Source: Candidatus Galacturonatibacter soehngenii (lineage in GTDB: Bacteria; Bacillota; Clostridia; Lachnospirales; Lachnospiraceae). From it: a DNA stretch of 64,000 bases. The translations under genes were made by a program, and so were the position numbers. Where the stretch lies: the NCBI RefSeq assembly GCF_008830185.1, contig NZ_WAGX01000007.1, positions 434,001-498,000 of the forward strand, in the 5' to 3' direction. This document shows positions 31,125-40,005 of the stretch, piece after piece; within the stretch, counting starts at the first letter, position 1, and every line of letters starts with the position of its first letter. Below the pieces are notes generated by a model that searched no databases, was not told the DNA's origin, and worked only from the letters and a program-made list of their open reading frames with translations.

Positions 31125-32030
31125 ATGACATTACAACAATTAAGATATGCTATCATGATTGCGGATTGTGGTTCTATGAATGAAGCGGCAAAGCGATTGT
31201 TTATTTCACAACCAAGTCTTTCAGGCACTATGAAGGAACTAGAAGAAGAAATTGGAGCCGATATTTTCTTTCGCTCAAACAGAGGAATCATTATTACTCC
31301 AGAAGGGGAAGAGTTCTTAGGCTATGCAAGACAGGTAGTAGATCAATATCGTTTGTTGGAAAATAGATATATCGAAAAGAATTCAAAGAAAAAATTTAGT
31401 GTATCCATGCAGCATTATACCTTTGCGGTCAAGGCATTTGTAGAAGTGGTGAAAAAGGTTGGTATGGAGCAATACGAATTTGCAGTACACGAAACGAAGA
31501 CGTATGAAGTGATTGAGAATGTAAAAAACTTTAAAAGTGAGCTTGGTGTACTCTACTTAAATGATTTTAATGAGCAGGTGCTCACCAAAATACTGCGAGA
31601 AAACAGTCTTGAATTTCAAGAACTATTTCAATGTGATACGTATGTGTATTTATGGGGGGAACACCCATTGGCAAAGCAGGAATTAATCTCCATGGAAGAA
31701 CTAGAAGAATATCCTTGTCTGGCATTTGAACAAGGGAAGAATAATTCATTTTATCTGGCAGAAGAAGTAATGAGTACGTATGAATACAAAAGAATTATTA
31801 AAGCAGATGATAGAGCAACCTTGTTAAATCTTATGGTAGGGTTAAATGGATATACACTATGTTCGGGAATCATTTGTGAGGAATTAAATGGAGATGATTA
31901 TAAGGCAGTACCACTGGTGGAAAGTCAGAAAATGAGGATTGGTTATATCAAAAGAAAAGGATCAAACATTAGTAGCTTAGGTGAATTATATATAAAAGAA
32001 TTGCAAAAATATCAAGACAGAGTGTTATAG
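31125..32030 (+). CDS. LysR-family transcriptional regulator
   Basis: 301-aa LysR protein: N-terminal winged HTH (about 1-60, MTLQQLRYAIMIADCGSMNE, AKRLFISQPSLSGTMKELE) and a C-terminal periplasmic-binding-like effector domain (about 90-295). AGAGGTGAAGG precedes the start. It sits directly upstream of metNIQ in the same direction, separated by a leader region, and downstream of the thiol/C-S lyase genes. It is the best local candidate for a sulfur-responsive regulator, of metNIQ and possibly of the GST operons, but the dyad in its own promoter differs from the dyad of the GST operons. The effector is unknown; O-acetylserine-type ligands are common in sulfur LysR proteins. Confidence 0.9.
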   Translation: MTLQQLRYAIMIADCGSMNEAAKRLFISQPSLSGTMKELEEEIGADIFFRSNRGIIITPEGEEFLGYARQVVDQYRLLENRYIEKNSKKKFSVSMQHYTFAVKAFVEVVKKVGMEQYEFAVHETKTYEVIENVKNFKSELGVLYLNDFNEQVLTKILRENSLEFQELFQCDTYVYLWGEHPLAKQELISMEELEEYPCLAFEQGKNNSFYLAEEVMSTYEYKRIIKADDRATLLNLMVGLNGYTLCSGIICEELNGDDYKAVPLVESQKMRIGYIKRKGSNISSLGELYIKELQKYQDRVL

Positions 32031-32064: not shown

Positions 32065-32093
32065 TTGCGCATAATTTTATTATCTGCTATGAT
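32065..32093 (+). promoter_or_regulatory. Promoter of the leader peptide-metNIQ transcript
   Basis: TTGCGC (32065-32070), 17-bp spacer, TATGAT (32088-32093). A half-site CTATTAAA (32048-32055), identical to the LysR gene dyad arm, lies just upstream of the -35. Confidence 0.6.
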
Positions 32094-32126
32094 GTTACAT
32101 ATTAATATTGAGAGGAGAAATCGGAT

Positions 32127-32237
32127 ATGAGAAGTTACATGAGAGCTTATAATCAAATGATGTGTTGCTGTTGCAGGTACATTTGTGGTATTATGCTTTA
32201 TGGAGTGCGCTTCAAACCGGTTTTATATCTGTTATAA
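32127..32237 (+). CDS. Cysteine-codon leader peptide upstream of metNIQ
   Basis: 36-codon ORF with GAGGAG (32112-32117) before the ATG. It reads MRSYMRAYNQMMCCCCRYIC and continues GIMLYGVRFKPVLYLL. Codons 11-16 are Met-Met-Cys-Cys-Cys-Cys (TGTTGCTGTTGC at 32163-32174), with another Cys at codon 20. Codons 27-34 contain the 5' arms of an antiterminator that competes with the terminator at 32264-32296. This is the classic layout of ribosome-mediated transcription attenuation: shortage of charged tRNA-Cys would stall the ribosome on the Cys run and allow expression of the transporter genes. Confidence 0.75.
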   Translation: MRSYMRAYNQMMCCCCRYICGIMLYGVRFKPVLYLL

Positions 32238-32272
32238 TCAAGAGCCTACAATGATGAAACCAAAACAGCGCA
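32206..32272 (+). promoter_or_regulatory. Antiterminator of the cysteine attenuator
   Basis: GGTTTTAT (32219-32226) can pair with ATGAAACC (32254-32261), 8 bp including one G-U, and TGCGCT (32206-32211) with AGCGCA (32267-32272), 6 bp. The outer 3' arm uses bases of the terminator 5' arm, so the two folds exclude each other. Both 5' arms lie inside the leader peptide ORF and would be covered by a ribosome reaching its stop codon. Confidence 0.65.
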
Positions 32273-32296
32273 TCCGTAGGATCGCTGTTCTTTTTT
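32264..32296 (+). terminator. Attenuator terminator upstream of metN
   Basis: AACAGCG (32264-32270) pairs with CGCTGTT (32283-32289) and ATCC with GGAT inside, one bulged C, followed by CTTTTTTGTTTT. It lies between the leader peptide and metN. Confidence 0.88.
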
Positions 32297-32374
32297 GTTT
32301 TAACTAAAAAGTTCGAAGAATCCTAACTCTAAGAGGAAATGCCTCTATTAATTTAAACCGAAAGGAGTAAGCAG

Positions 32375-33376
32375 ATGATTCGAATTGATAATGTCAGTAA
32401 AGTATTTCGTACTAGCACAGATGAAATCAAGGCTGTAAACAATATTAATCTTACGATAGAAGATGGAAGTATATTCGGAATCATCGGATTATCCGGAGCA
32501 GGTAAGTCTACTCTGGTACGATGTATTAATCTGTTAGAAAGACCGACAGCAGGAAGAATTTATTTAAATGAGGTAGAACTTACTTCATTGAATCCAAAAC
32601 AATTAAGAAAAGAAAGAGAAAAAATCGGTATGATATTCCAACAATTTAATCTGTTGGAACAAAGAACTGCATTAAGAAATGTATGCTATCCGCTAGAAAT
32701 TGCAGGAGTTAAGTCATCTGAGGCGAAAGAAAAGGCTAAAAAATTATTAGATCTAGTAGGGCTTTCCGATCGTCTGAATAATTATCCTTCTCAGTTATCA
32801 GGAGGACAAAAGCAAAGAGTTGCAATTGCAAGGGCACTAGCAACAGATCCACAAGTACTGTTGTGTGATGAAGCAACGAGTGCACTTGATCCAAATACAA
32901 CTAGATCGATTTTAGATTTATTAAAAAATATCAATGAAAAGCTGGGTGTTACGATTGTTGTAATTACCCATGAAATGAAAGTTGTGGAGCAAATTTGTGA
33001 TCAGGTTGCTGTACTTGACAATGGAATGGTAGCAGAAACTGGTGCAGTGAAAGATATTTTTCTTTCACCAAAGTCAAAGATTGCACAAGAATTGATATTT
33101 CCAAAAAATAAAGGAATTGCAAGTCTACAAAACAAACGAATTCTTCGACTTGCATTCGATGGTCAATCCTCTTTTGAACCAGTTATATCTAATTTGGTAT
33201 TAAAATGCCAAACTATGGTTAATATACTTGGTGCTAGTACTGAAGATATTGGAGGTAAGGCATTTGGGCAGATGATTCTTCAATTACCTGAGGATGAACT
33301 TGCTATTGCCAGAGCTAAAAATTACTTAGATTCAATCGGAATTCATTATGAGGAGAGTGATGTAGATGGAAATTAA
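32375..33376 (+). CDS. metN: Methionine-type ABC transporter ATPase MetN
   Basis: ATPase of the MetNIQ importer for L/D-methionine, some forms also moving cystine or homocysteine. Walker A GLSGAGKST, signature LSGGQKQRVAIARAL, Walker B LLCDEATSALDP. A C-terminal NIL domain (about 255-333) is present, which in E. coli MetN binds methionine and inhibits transport when the pool is full. AAAGGAG precedes the start. Overlaps metI by 11 nt. Expression appears to be set by the upstream leader peptide/terminator. The cysteine codons in that leader leave open whether the substrate is methionine, cyst(e)ine or both. Confidence 0.94.
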   Translation: MIRIDNVSKVFRTSTDEIKAVNNINLTIEDGSIFGIIGLSGAGKSTLVRCINLLERPTAGRIYLNEVELTSLNPKQLRKEREKIGMIFQQFNLLEQRTALRNVCYPLEIAGVKSSEAKEKAKKLLDLVGLSDRLNNYPSQLSGGQKQRVAIARALATDPQVLLCDEATSALDPNTTRSILDLLKNINEKLGVTIVVITHEMKVVEQICDQVAVLDNGMVAETGAVKDIFLSPKSKIAQELIFPKNKGIASLQNKRILRLAFDGQSSFEPVISNLVLKCQTMVNILGASTEDIGGKAFGQMILQLPEDELAIARAKNYLDSIGIHYEESDVDGN

Positions 33377-34034
33377 TCAATTAATTACGCTAATGATTCA
33401 AGGTACAAAAGAAACACTATATATGACATTGATATCCACTGCCTTTTCCTATTTGCTTGGAATTCCAGTTGGAGTACTTTTATTCATAACAGATAAATTT
33501 GGAATATGGGAGTGTAAGCCATTAAATGCCGTTTTAGGTATTGTTGTAAATATTATGCGCTCCGTTCCATTTATTATATTATTAGTAGCCATTTTGCCTT
33601 TTACAAGAGCTGTCGTTGGAACGACCATTGGTTCTACGGCTACCATTGTTCCGCTTGTTGTAGCAGCAGCTCCATTTGTAGCAAGAATGGTTGAATCATC
33701 TTTAAAAGAAGTCGATGCAGGTATCATTGAAGCAGCTTTGGCGATGGGGTCTAGTCCCTTACAGATTATCTATAAAGTGCTTCTACCAGAATCAAAACCA
33801 TCATTATTGATTGGGGCTACGATTACAACAACAACAATCTTAGGATATTCTGCTATGGCAGGATTTACTGGTGGTGGTGGACTTGGAGCGATTGCTGTAA
33901 ATTATGGTTATTATCGCTACCAGACCAATATTATGTTTATCACAGTGATTTTACTAGTCATCGTTGTGCAAATATTCCAAGAAATTGGAATGAGATTTGC
34001 CAATAGGACTGATAAAAGAATAAAGAATTTGTAA
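33366..34034 (+). CDS. metI: Methionine-type ABC transporter permease MetI
   Basis: 222-aa permease with five membrane helices, typical MetI length. The coupling loop is around GIIEAALAMGSSPLQIIYKV (about 118-137), contacting MetN; NIMRSVPFIILLVAILPFTR is characteristic. Its start overlaps the metN end, GAGGAG just upstream, so the pair is coupled. metQ follows after 56 nt. Confidence 0.93.
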   Translation: MEINQLITLMIQGTKETLYMTLISTAFSYLLGIPVGVLLFITDKFGIWECKPLNAVLGIVVNIMRSVPFIILLVAILPFTRAVVGTTIGSTATIVPLVVAAAPFVARMVESSLKEVDAGIIEAALAMGSSPLQIIYKVLLPESKPSLLIGATITTTTILGYSAMAGFTGGGGLGAIAVNYGYYRYQTNIMFITVILLVIVVQIFQEIGMRFANRTDKRIKNL

Positions 34035-34090: not shown

Positions 34091-35002
34091 ATGAAAAAAA
34101 GAATTACATCATTTATGTTAGCATTTACATTAGCAGCAGGAGCATTGGCAGGCTGTGCAACAAAAGCAGAGCCAGAAGCAACCAATTCTGAAACAACAAA
34201 AGATTCATCAACTGAGACAAAAGATGATTCAACAGATACAACAGATGCAAAAGCTGAGGAAGCTACAACAGAAGATAAAACAATTAAAGTAGGAGCATCT
34301 CCAACACCTCATGCAGAAATTCTAGAACAGGCAAAGGCTATTCTTGAAAAAGATGGCTATACACTTGAAATCGTAGAGTACAATGATTATGTATTACCAA
34401 ATACTGCACTTGATACTGGAGAGTTAGATGCGAATTACTTCCAACATAAGCCATACTTAGATGACTTTAACAAAGAAAATGGAACTGATATCGTTTCAGC
34501 AGGAGCGATTCATTTTGAGCCATTTGGAATTTATGCAGGAAAAACAAAGTCCATCGAAGAATTAAAAGAAGGAGCAACTATTGCAGTTCCTAACGATGCA
34601 ACAAATGAAGCAAGAGCACTTCTTTTATTAGAAGCACAAGGTCTTATTAAATTAAAAGCAGATGCAGGACTTAGCGCAACCAAATTAGACATTGAAGAAA
34701 ATAAACTAAATTTAAACATTGAAGAAATTGAAGCAGCTCAGATTGCACGTGCTTTACCAGATGTTGATCTTGCTGCAATCAATGGTAACTATGCAATTCA
34801 AGGTGGTCTTAGTGTATCAGATGCACTAGCAACAGAAGAAGCTAGTTCACTAGCAGCTACTACTTATGCAAATATTATTGCTGTAAATGCAGGAAATGAA
34901 AACAGTGAAAAGGTTCAGGCACTTTTAAAGGCTCTTCAAAGTGAAGAAATTCGTAAATTTATTGAAGAAAAATACACTGGAGCTGTAGTTCCAACCTTTT
35001 AA
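34091..35002 (+). CDS. metQ: Methionine-type substrate-binding lipoprotein MetQ
   Basis: 303-aa NlpA/MetQ family lipoprotein. Lipobox LAAGALAGC places the lipid-modified cysteine at C22. A Thr/Asp/Lys-rich linker (about 27-60) leads to the binding fold with KVGASPTPHAEIL, LDANYFQHKPYLDDFN and VPNDATNEARALLLLE, all MetQ signatures. AAGGAGAG precedes the start. It completes metNIQ. Ligand preference cannot be seen directly; NlpA-family members bind methionine, and some bind other sulfur amino acids. Confidence 0.93.
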   Translation: MKKRITSFMLAFTLAAGALAGCATKAEPEATNSETTKDSSTETKDDSTDTTDAKAEEATTEDKTIKVGASPTPHAEILEQAKAILEKDGYTLEIVEYNDYVLPNTALDTGELDANYFQHKPYLDDFNKENGTDIVSAGAIHFEPFGIYAGKTKSIEELKEGATIAVPNDATNEARALLLLEAQGLIKLKADAGLSATKLDIEENKLNLNIEEIEAAQIARALPDVDLAAINGNYAIQGGLSVSDALATEEASSLAATTYANIIAVNAGNENSEKVQALLKALQSEEIRKFIEEKYTGAVVPTF

Positions 35003-35777: not shown

Positions 35778-36938
35778 ATGAAATCAATAGATTTAACCAT
35801 AGACCAATTAAAACAGTTACAAGAAAATGAGTACCAGCTCATCGATATGAGGGATAATATAGCTTATCAGCATGGATATATTCCAGGTGCAATCAACTTA
35901 AGTGAGTGTGAGTTTTGGAACAACATTAATCAACTAGATAAGAGTAAGAAAATTATTTTGTACTGTATGAAAGGCATCATCAGTAAGGATGTTGCAATTG
36001 AATTAACCGAACAAGGGTATGAGGCATATAATCTTGATGGAGGATATGGAAAATGGCTCATAGATACCTTTAAAAAAGAAGAAGTTCGTTATAAAGAGAT
36101 TGAAAAGAGCATTCAAAAGAAATATCACAAAGAGATTATGAGTAAATTTACCAAGGCAGTAAAAGAATATGAACTGGTAAAAGAAGGAGATAAGATAGCA
36201 GTTTGTATCTCTGGTGGAAAAGACTCCATGTTGATGGCAAAATTATTTCAGGAATTGCAGCGCTATAAAAAGGTAAACTTTGAGCTTGTATTTCTTGTGA
36301 TGGATCCAGGTTACAATGAAACAAATAGACAGGTTATTGAGAAAAATGCGAAATTGCTTAATATACCAATCACGGTATTTGAGTCAACTATATTTGAAGC
36401 AGTCTATGAAGTTGAAAAGTCACCATGTTACTTATGTGCCAGAATGAGAAGAGGCTATTTATACAGCAAGGCAAAAGAGCTTGGCTGCAATAAGATTGCA
36501 CTTGGACATCATTATGATGATGTAATTGAAACAATCTTAATGGGTATGATGTATGGAGCACAGATTCAGACCATGATGCCAAAGCTACACAGTACAAACT
36601 TTGAAGGCATGGAGTTAATACGACCTATGTATCTGATTCGAGAAGAAGATATCAAAAGTTGGAGAGACTATAACGACCTTCATTTTATTCAGTGCGCTTG
36701 TCGTTTTACCGATACATGTACAACCTGTCGTGTGGATGGAAGTACAGGATCGAAACGAGTTGAAATAAAGAATTTAATCGCCAAGTTAAAGGAAACAAAT
36801 CCATACATTGAAGGAAATATATTTAGAAGCGTAGAAAACGTAAATTTAAGTACAGTTATTGCCTATAAGGAACAAGGTGTGAAACATCATTTCTTAGAAA
36901 ATTATGATAAGAATCTTAATGGGGATGACAACGAATAA
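35778..36938 (+). CDS. Rhodanese domain fused to a TtcA-like PP-loop tRNA thiolation enzyme
   Basis: 386-aa two-domain protein. Residues 1-105 are a rhodanese domain with the active cysteine C63 in ILYCMKGIISKDV, which would carry a persulfide. Residues about 120-386 are an N-type ATP pyrophosphatase with PP-loop SGGKDS (145-150), and cysteine motifs PCYLCARMRRG and CACRFTDTCTTC expected to hold an Fe-S cluster and catalytic cysteines as in TtcA/TtuA. HHYDDVIETILM is also a family motif. It probably activates a tRNA base with ATP and inserts sulfur supplied by its own rhodanese. The target base (C32, as for TtcA, or another) cannot be told. Promoter at 35710, terminator after. Confidence 0.87.
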   Translation: MKSIDLTIDQLKQLQENEYQLIDMRDNIAYQHGYIPGAINLSECEFWNNINQLDKSKKIILYCMKGIISKDVAIELTEQGYEAYNLDGGYGKWLIDTFKKEEVRYKEIEKSIQKKYHKEIMSKFTKAVKEYELVKEGDKIAVCISGGKDSMLMAKLFQELQRYKKVNFELVFLVMDPGYNETNRQVIEKNAKLLNIPITVFESTIFEAVYEVEKSPCYLCARMRRGYLYSKAKELGCNKIALGHHYDDVIETILMGMMYGAQIQTMMPKLHSTNFEGMELIRPMYLIREEDIKSWRDYNDLHFIQCACRFTDTCTTCRVDGSTGSKRVEIKNLIAKLKETNPYIEGNIFRSVENVNLSTVIAYKEQGVKHHFLENYDKNLNGDDNE

Positions 36939-39686: not shown

Positions 39687-39699
39687 TTGAAAATAGCAA

Positions 39700-40005
39700 T
39701 GACGAAGAGAAGTAGCATAAATTATCGTTTCCAGTGAGTGGAGGACAGTGAAAACTCCATAAAGTGAATTTATGTGAATAACACTTTACCAGCTGCAATC
39801 TGAACCTCACTACATAGATAGCGATTAGTAGGTGCGCCGTAGGCTGTGCGACAAACAGCAAGGTTTATGAGTTATGGCAAGTGAAACAGTTTAACGTTTC
39901 AGCCTGTAGAACCGTTGAGTGACTGTATTACAGTAAATCAGGTGGTACCGCGGACATATAATGTTCGTCCTGAACGACAATTCGTTTTGGATGGGCATTT
40001 TTTAG
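39700..40005 (+). promoter_or_regulatory. T-box riboswitch upstream of aspS
   Basis: tRNA-sensing leader. The start GACGAAGAGAAGTAG (39701 on) and stem I distal motif GAGGACAGTGAAAACTC are T-box features. The core sequence TGGTACCGCGG (39943-39953) is the T-box proper, which pairs with the tRNA acceptor end. The terminator is TGTTCGTCC (39962-39970) with GGATGGGCA (39989-39997), then six T. Stem I can be closed by ATCGTT/AGCGAT (39724/39820) and AGTGAG/CTCACT (39733/39806). The specifier region reads CTGAACCTCACT; I see AAC (Asn, 39803-39805) as a candidate and no Asp codon in place, but CCT cannot be excluded. Confidence 0.88.

Follow-up and report, generated by a model that had tools for sequence, protein, structure and literature searches.

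The 64-kb stretch of DNA from Candidatus Galacturonatibacter soehngenii analysed here (the window) carries the methionine-type ABC transporter operon metNIQ and, directly upstream of it, a short open reading frame (ORF) rich in methionine and cysteine codons, an intrinsic terminator, and the arms of a candidate antiterminator. The features of the locus are:

31125-32030: LysR-type regulator gene, upstream of the leader
32065-32093, forward strand: probable promoter as read from the sequence, TTGCGC (-35), 17 nt, extended -10 TGC-TATGAT
32111-32117, forward strand: Shine-Dalgarno sequence AGAGGAG of the leader ORF, read from the sequence; AGGAG is kept in the genus
32127-32237, forward strand: leader peptide ORF, 36 aa, MRSYMRAYNQMMCCCCRYICGIMLYGVRFKPVLYLL; ATG at 32127, stop codon at 32235-32237
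32157-32174, forward strand: putative control codons Met-Met-Cys-Cys-Cys-Cys; M-C-C is kept in the genus, the last two Cys are not
32206-32226, forward strand: putative antiterminator 5' arms, TGCGCT (32206-32211) and GGTTTTAT (32219-32226), in the 3' part of the ORF
32254-32272, forward strand: putative antiterminator 3' arms, ATGAAACC (32254-32261) and AGCGCA (32267-32272), from duplex search and alignment
32264-32296, forward strand: intrinsic terminator, AACAGCGCATCCGTAGGATCGCTGTT followed by C and T6; stem 32264-32289, T-run 32291-32296, dG -12.6
32375-33376, forward strand: metN, ABC ATPase with NIL domain (TIGR02314, E 1.8e-108; PF00005; PF09383)
33366-34034, forward strand: metI, permease (NF008049, above cut-off)
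34091-35002, forward strand: metQ, substrate-binding lipoprotein (PF03180, E 2.9e-93; TIGR00363, slightly under cut-off)

NCBIfam and Pfam support the identity of metN, metI, and metQ given in a preliminary description of this DNA, with the MetN match to TIGR02314 (362.6 bits) lying under the cut-off of that model (499.7). The same description had proposed that the transporter may carry cyst(e)ine or a precursor. Against this speak the NIL domain of MetN—a domain with a methionine-sensing role—and a comparison of MetQ with solved chains, in which 22 sequences matched, several of them named MetQ or methionine-binding, among other names. We found no support for metNIQ as a cystine transporter, and it is most likely still a transporter for methionine. 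Shortly after metQ, at 35778-36938, a rhodanese domain is fused to a TtcA-like PP-loop domain, and the product is likely a sulfur-transfer protein near the sulfur amino acid transporter. Across eight loci with a leader-bearing metN, ten nearby genes vary and offer no common clue.

The sequence and the ORF list place the 36 codons, the good Shine-Dalgarno sequence, the MMCCCC run at 32157-32174, and the further Cys codon (32184-32186) where they had been described, and the peptide holds 5 Cys and 4 internal Met. Among ORFs of 12-60 aa with an ATG and a Shine-Dalgarno sequence, on both strands of the 64-kb window, it alone reaches a Met/Cys score of at least 2.5, which argues that it is not a chance ORF. 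No Pfam or NCBIfam family matches the peptide at E 0.001; as a sole query against 61 genomes, it recovered itself and the genome G002 of the same genus (E 3.5e-5), with the remainder at E 0.036 or worse. Transcription of the leader probably starts at about 32100. A consensus promoter and terminator scan of the window listed neither the proposed promoter at 32065-32093 nor the terminator at 32264-32296; the sole promoter-like site that it gave at the locus (32211-32238, TTCAAA-16-TATAAT, with TG before the second hexamer) sits inside the leader ORF, at its 3' end, and, if real, would start a metN transcript that lacks the leader. A small hairpin (AGAGGAAATGCCTCT, 32332-32346), terminator-like in the consensus scan, follows the terminator ahead of metN.

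Arms overlapping the ORF, and competing with a terminator right before metN, had also been described, and both are present and able to pair. In the window, TGCGCT can pair with AGCGCA and GGTTTTAT with ATGAAACC, and AGCGCA doubles as part of the terminator's 5' arm. The antiterminator duplex has an energy of -18.3 (p 0.015, 200 shuffles); the leader-region stretch as a whole has a minimum free energy that is not below shuffles (z -0.72, or 0.33 without the terminator). With a ribosome placed on the fourth Cys codon, the predicted folds come to a near tie (antiterminator -24.3 versus terminator -24.0). The minimum-energy fold keeps the terminator when the ribosome is on the first Cys or on Cys 20, and at the stop codon the terminator alone is left.

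All three genomes of the genus (the window's, G001, and G002) have a leader ORF upstream of metN, encoding MRSYMRAYNQMMCCCCRYICGIMLYGVRFKPVLYLL in the window, MRTLNIMSNEIMCCDDRGMCGIMLYQVRLNPFSL in G002, and MRTVKTSNKMMCCLNKCMCYMMHHQVRLNRFSI in G001; common to these peptides is Met-Cys-Cys, followed further on by another Cys and another Met. Conservation extends to the -10 element (TATAAT in both genus mates, TATGAT in the window), the Shine-Dalgarno sequence, the leader start, the MCC core, and a GTGCG[CT]TT...GTTTT arm encoded by the 3' part of the ORFs, which would account for the conserved VR near the end of the peptide. The window's two extra Cys are absent from its genus mates, which read MCCDD and MCCLN; the run of four Cys from which the preliminary description had argued is therefore special to the window, with only MCC kept in the genus.

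Starting from the window's MetN, we surveyed 30 loci from relatives (best matches only) and the best 80 of 547 public loci, amounting to 109 loci with usable DNA upstream of metN. An ORF with an ATG, a Shine-Dalgarno sequence, and a Met/Cys score of at least 4 was found in 29 of the 109 regions, whereas none of 2180 dinucleotide shuffles had one (31 of 109 versus 1 of 2180 at a score of at least 3), and none of the 109 reverse complements held a Met/Cys-rich ORF at either threshold; 80 regions lacked a leader at score 4. When residue pairs were compared (190 pairs, score of at least 5), Cys+Met gave the most regions (21), followed by Met+Asn (16) and Met+Arg (15). Examples of the leaders are MRQLTAMQMNMDQMNGMCMMMCCFSECVKNR (L077, Lacrimispora), MRTSNIIMCNMDNMCGMCTMCSMPYIILCLDR (L063), and MPSTRMNMCMMCGFARFSAMQR (L053, Agathobaculum). 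The 80 public loci (778,423 bases in all) held a single other ORF that scored at least 4, unrelated and in three nested forms: a short, Cys-rich ORF from position 2954 of locus L062 (MMNNIEKNRRRCMCCQCVTCRNKNCVSCTVNM).

Our final leader set comprised 43 loci with a score of at least 2.9, 32 from the survey and 11 from a profile search, encoding 42 distinct peptides; it was restricted to ATG starts and left out Met/Cys-containing ORFs of L129 (GTG start, score 4.4) and L121 (score 1.7). After the start, Met makes up 24.2% and Cys 10.1% of the residues of the 42 leaders; in the other frames, Met falls at 1.5 and 1.1%, and Cys reaches 13.3% in frame 1. The distinct leaders contain 314 Met versus 131 Cys (4-11 Met and 1-6 Cys each), and since the set was selected on Met+Cys content, that content is partly by construction and the informative part is the split between the two.

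This split divides the preliminary reading of the locus as a cysteine-sensing attenuator: a leader-peptide attenuator before metNIQ is supported, and sensing of Cys alone is not, given the 314 Met to 131 Cys and a CCCC run that is not kept. We regard it as unlikely that the attenuator senses cysteine alone in the window's lineage, with a transporter whose substrate would have changed to cyst(e)ine or a precursor. The window's leader, with 5 Cys to 4 internal Met, is the only one of the 42 in which Cys outnumbers Met, and the MCC core is kept in all three genus genomes; yet CCCC is not, all three genus leaders place Met before the Cys pair and again after it, Met dominates in the leaders of relatives, the NIL domain of MetN and the methionine-binding matches of MetQ point to methionine, and cysE in the same genome is preceded by a T-box. 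Most likely, the input is mainly Met in relatives and Met plus Cys in the window, with both supplies read together rather than cysteine alone.

A profile of 32 leaders (A1) searched against 299 whole genomes of the family gave 17 matches in 17 genomes (E 3.8e-4 or better), every one of them upstream of metN, the leader start lying 206-432 nt ahead of the metN match. For six of these, the same genome had already contributed a leader to A1, and a seventh (G305) duplicates an A1 row exactly; the other 10 are new, although some could belong to close relatives of A1 members. Leaders of this kind, which the preliminary description had suggested looking for upstream of metN in relatives, are found in 29 of 109 regions, in three of three genus genomes, and at 17 of 17 profile matches. 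In a class-wide sample, a wider profile matched three of 391 genomes: the window's, G559 (also before metN), and G388, the last of which (E 0.006) was rejected as a chance match: it runs antisense to a gene for a Xer-type recombinase, and its 3 kb contain no metN. The compact form of the leader seems characteristic of the window's family; looser forms occur in loci titled Butyricicoccaceae, Christensenellaceae, Oscillospiraceae, and Clostridiaceae.

In the aligned leaders, one Met-Cys pair is nearly invariant and the positions of other Met and Cys vary. Met/Cys-rich peptides can bind Cu(I), and the near-invariant pair would suit a nascent chain that itself stalls the ribosome in response to a metabolite or metal (SAM, for example, or copper on Met/Cys side chains) instead of codon supply. 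We consider this very unlikely, however, as composition is common to the leaders more than sequence outside the pair, which fits codon reading better, and all 17 A1 matches precede metN.

An intrinsic terminator lies between leader and metN in 40 of the 43 leader loci, and in the remaining three (L028, L070, and L139) it is visible in alignment A3. At a stricter cut, it is found in 39 of 42 leader loci versus 18 of 210 shuffles, and near metN in 33 of 77 leaderless regions as well. Over 24 aligned loci—relatives only, with the window's genus not included—the terminator is 93.9% paired, with 28 double changes where 6.2 were expected, a level that none of 500 shuffles reached. Of the two stems whose covariation the preliminary description had suggested testing, the terminator shows it and the antiterminator does not exceed shuffles: 56 of 500 reach the observed pairing and 187 of 500 the observed score.

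Terminators in leaderless regions are also what one would see if the leader ORF were a functional small protein or a product of chance and the terminator were constitutive or otherwise controlled, for instance by the LysR regulator encoded at 31125-32030, and a LysR gene like the window's does precede the leader in 3 of the 17 profile-match loci (G000, G002, and G026). The other 14 have no such gene in flanks of at most 1.5 kb, however, chance is excluded by the shuffles and by the 17 of 17 link to metN, and the terminator follows the leader and covaries, making this explanation highly improbable.

The evidence for the alternative pairing in relatives is an element resembling TGTATGGATTGTGATT, conserved near the stop codon of the leader, which pairs with the terminator's 5' arm and loop in 82.8% of cells of the alignment versus 25-48% when slid. 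The limited covariation of the antiterminator may arise because the shared arm has two partners, which we offer as an explanation and not as evidence. An upstream complement of the terminator arm, scored in 39 loci, gave a mean z of -1.2 and p of at most 0.05 in only 8. In equilibrium folding with the arm free, the terminator still wins in 22 of 25 loci, and the switch would therefore have to be kinetic; for RNA that ends short of the terminator's 3' arm, the antiterminator is the predicted fold in 22 of 25 loci. Judged by positions only, a ribosome on most Met/Cys codons leaves the arm free in the 24 relatives. The arm starts at most 12 nt from the leader stop in 16 of them and more than 12 nt past it in the other 8, where masking by a terminating ribosome is doubtful.

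A profile built without the window's genus did not recover the leaders of that genus (best E 2.8) and therefore does not establish peptide homology with the main group. When other clades were left out in turn, the leaders of L119, L084, L122, L123, and L035/L038 were not recovered (E above 0.7 or no match), and those of L100 (E 1.2e-4), the Herbinix type (0.011), and Agathobaculum (0.08) were recovered weakly, the level for comparison being 0.27 for the best leaderless region in a run without the window's genus. On a MetN tree (FastTree, 120 rows), the distribution of the leader requires 12 changes versus 34.9 for shuffled labels, and at least nine are forced by starred branches; L058 is scored leaderless there only because its contig ends, and L102, from a metagenome assembly, has no leader although the clade around it bears one. 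Across clades, composition, position, and terminator are shared and sequence is not. Repeated origin would be the simpler reading of these comparisons, the alternative being fast divergence from a common ancestor. A phage origin was rejected, as the leader of L120 had no match in the phage collection.

Rfam bears out the earlier remark that no SAM riboswitch or T-box is visible at the locus: it reports neither a riboswitch nor a T-box at the window's leader, and the sole gathering-level match in the 64 kb is a TPP riboswitch (RF00059, 47229-47332, 65.9 bits). A T-box at 39690-39975, before an aspartate--tRNA ligase gene (ORF from 40096, NF001750), scores 92.7 versus a gathering score of 93. 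None of 17 leader loci examined had a gathering-level Rfam match, including to RF00162 and RF00230, and 5 of 23 leaderless loci did (4 SAM, 1 T-box); the 80 public loci were checked for SAM riboswitches and T-boxes by crude sequence patterns only. One SAM riboswitch is present in 18 of 19 leader genomes, and in the three genus genomes it precedes metK (TIGR01034 in the window's genome). In the window's genome, 17 T-boxes match at E 0.001, some of them not exceeding the gathering score, and of ten inspected, one precedes cysE (TIGR01172); judging from this gene position, the organism seems to have another cysteine monitor. Also in this genome, a T-box precedes a gene for a TrpX-like substrate-binding protein (L182, 277-1344; NF041285, under cut-off). 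The organism seems to have the usual devices, and yet to use a leader peptide for metNIQ.

We propose that the region from 32100 to 32296 is probably a ribosome-mediated transcription attenuator of metNIQ that reads sulfur amino acids. The proposal rests on sequence analysis—the ORF, its codon bias, the terminator, the alternative pairing, and the recurrence before metN—from which we infer translation, stalling, a response to Met and Cys, and the ribosome position that switches the structure. The short Met/Cys-rich peptide would be translated from the nascent leader RNA. With ample charged tRNA-Met and tRNA-Cys, the ribosome would reach the stop codon and hinder the antiterminator arms, allowing the terminator before metN to form and transcription to stop. 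With either sulfur amino acid in short supply, the ribosome would instead stall in the Met/Cys run and leave the downstream arms free, such that the antiterminator could form ahead of the terminator's 3' arm and metNIQ would be transcribed.

Methionine control in Firmicutes has been described through S-box riboswitches and Met T-boxes. The classical leader-peptide attenuators are those of Proteobacteria (trp, his, leu, thr, and ilv), with a short ORF, control codons, and alternative antiterminator and terminator, the thr and ilv leaders each reading two or more amino acids; Cys leader ORFs of mycobacteria were reportedly the subject of work by Canestrari in 2020. The window's leader would share with the Proteobacteria attenuators a short ORF, control codons, and a candidate antiterminator as the alternative to a terminator before the operon, but differs in that its putative control codons are Met and Cys, its target is a transporter, and its host is a Clostridia-type bacterium with many T-boxes. 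Among Firmicutes, His leader peptides precede hisS paralogs (hisZ and hisS*) in bacilli in place of a T-box, and the 2010 paper on them presents leader-peptide attenuation as new to Firmicutes and mentions no earlier leader-peptide system outside Proteobacteria and Actinobacteria, apart from the ermC leader (PMC2965389). Leader-peptide attenuation without a T-box would be common to these and to the window, whereas the bacilli leaders use His codons and serve other genes.

Cys codons in a short ORF upstream of a sulfur-related gene, as in the window, are also described in excerpts on the mycobacterial cys operons, with no conserved terminator hairpins (PMC1262725; Cys leaders also in PMC9094748 and PMC13236596), and on uORFC-8-2 before cysS in Rhodobacterales, which has a U run at its end, interpreted as a terminator (PMC8632094). 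Unlike the window's, the leaders of PMC1262725 and PMC8632094 are, in those excerpts, Cys only and belong to different phyla; for methionine, PMC1262725 gives no conserved RNA structure in Actinobacteria. The same type of transporter is controlled at transcription termination by a methionine T-box in the met transporter operon of Lactococcus lactis (PMC7058034), and by SAM riboswitches on metN, seen here by Rfam in 4 leaderless loci; these are tRNA- or SAM-binding RNAs without a translated peptide, unlike the window's leader. Within the open-licence literature, we found no leader-peptide attenuator that reads methionine codons, a provisional result in that most subscription papers lie outside this scope. 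A Met-codon leader would be unusual because methionine shortage also affects initiation, and such a leader would therefore have to tell the supply of elongator tRNA-Met from a general slowing.

On balance, we lean towards the view that these leaders form an undescribed class of Clostridia attenuators that read Met codons, usually together with Cys, in which a single leader would signal the overall supply of sulfur amino acids, and which arose or were lost several times before the same transporter, replacing an S-box or Met T-box, with the window's lineage having drifted toward cysteine. In a gut-type bacterium, the methionine importer thus appears to be under the control of a tiny upstream peptide packed with Met and Cys, and similar peptides precede metN in many related bacteria, where such a sensor was not expected. 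Leaders that recur in several families while preserving composition rather than sequence may provide natural replicates of how codon-reading switches arise, and they would open sulfur amino acid sensing in Lachnospiraceae-type bacteria to direct testing.
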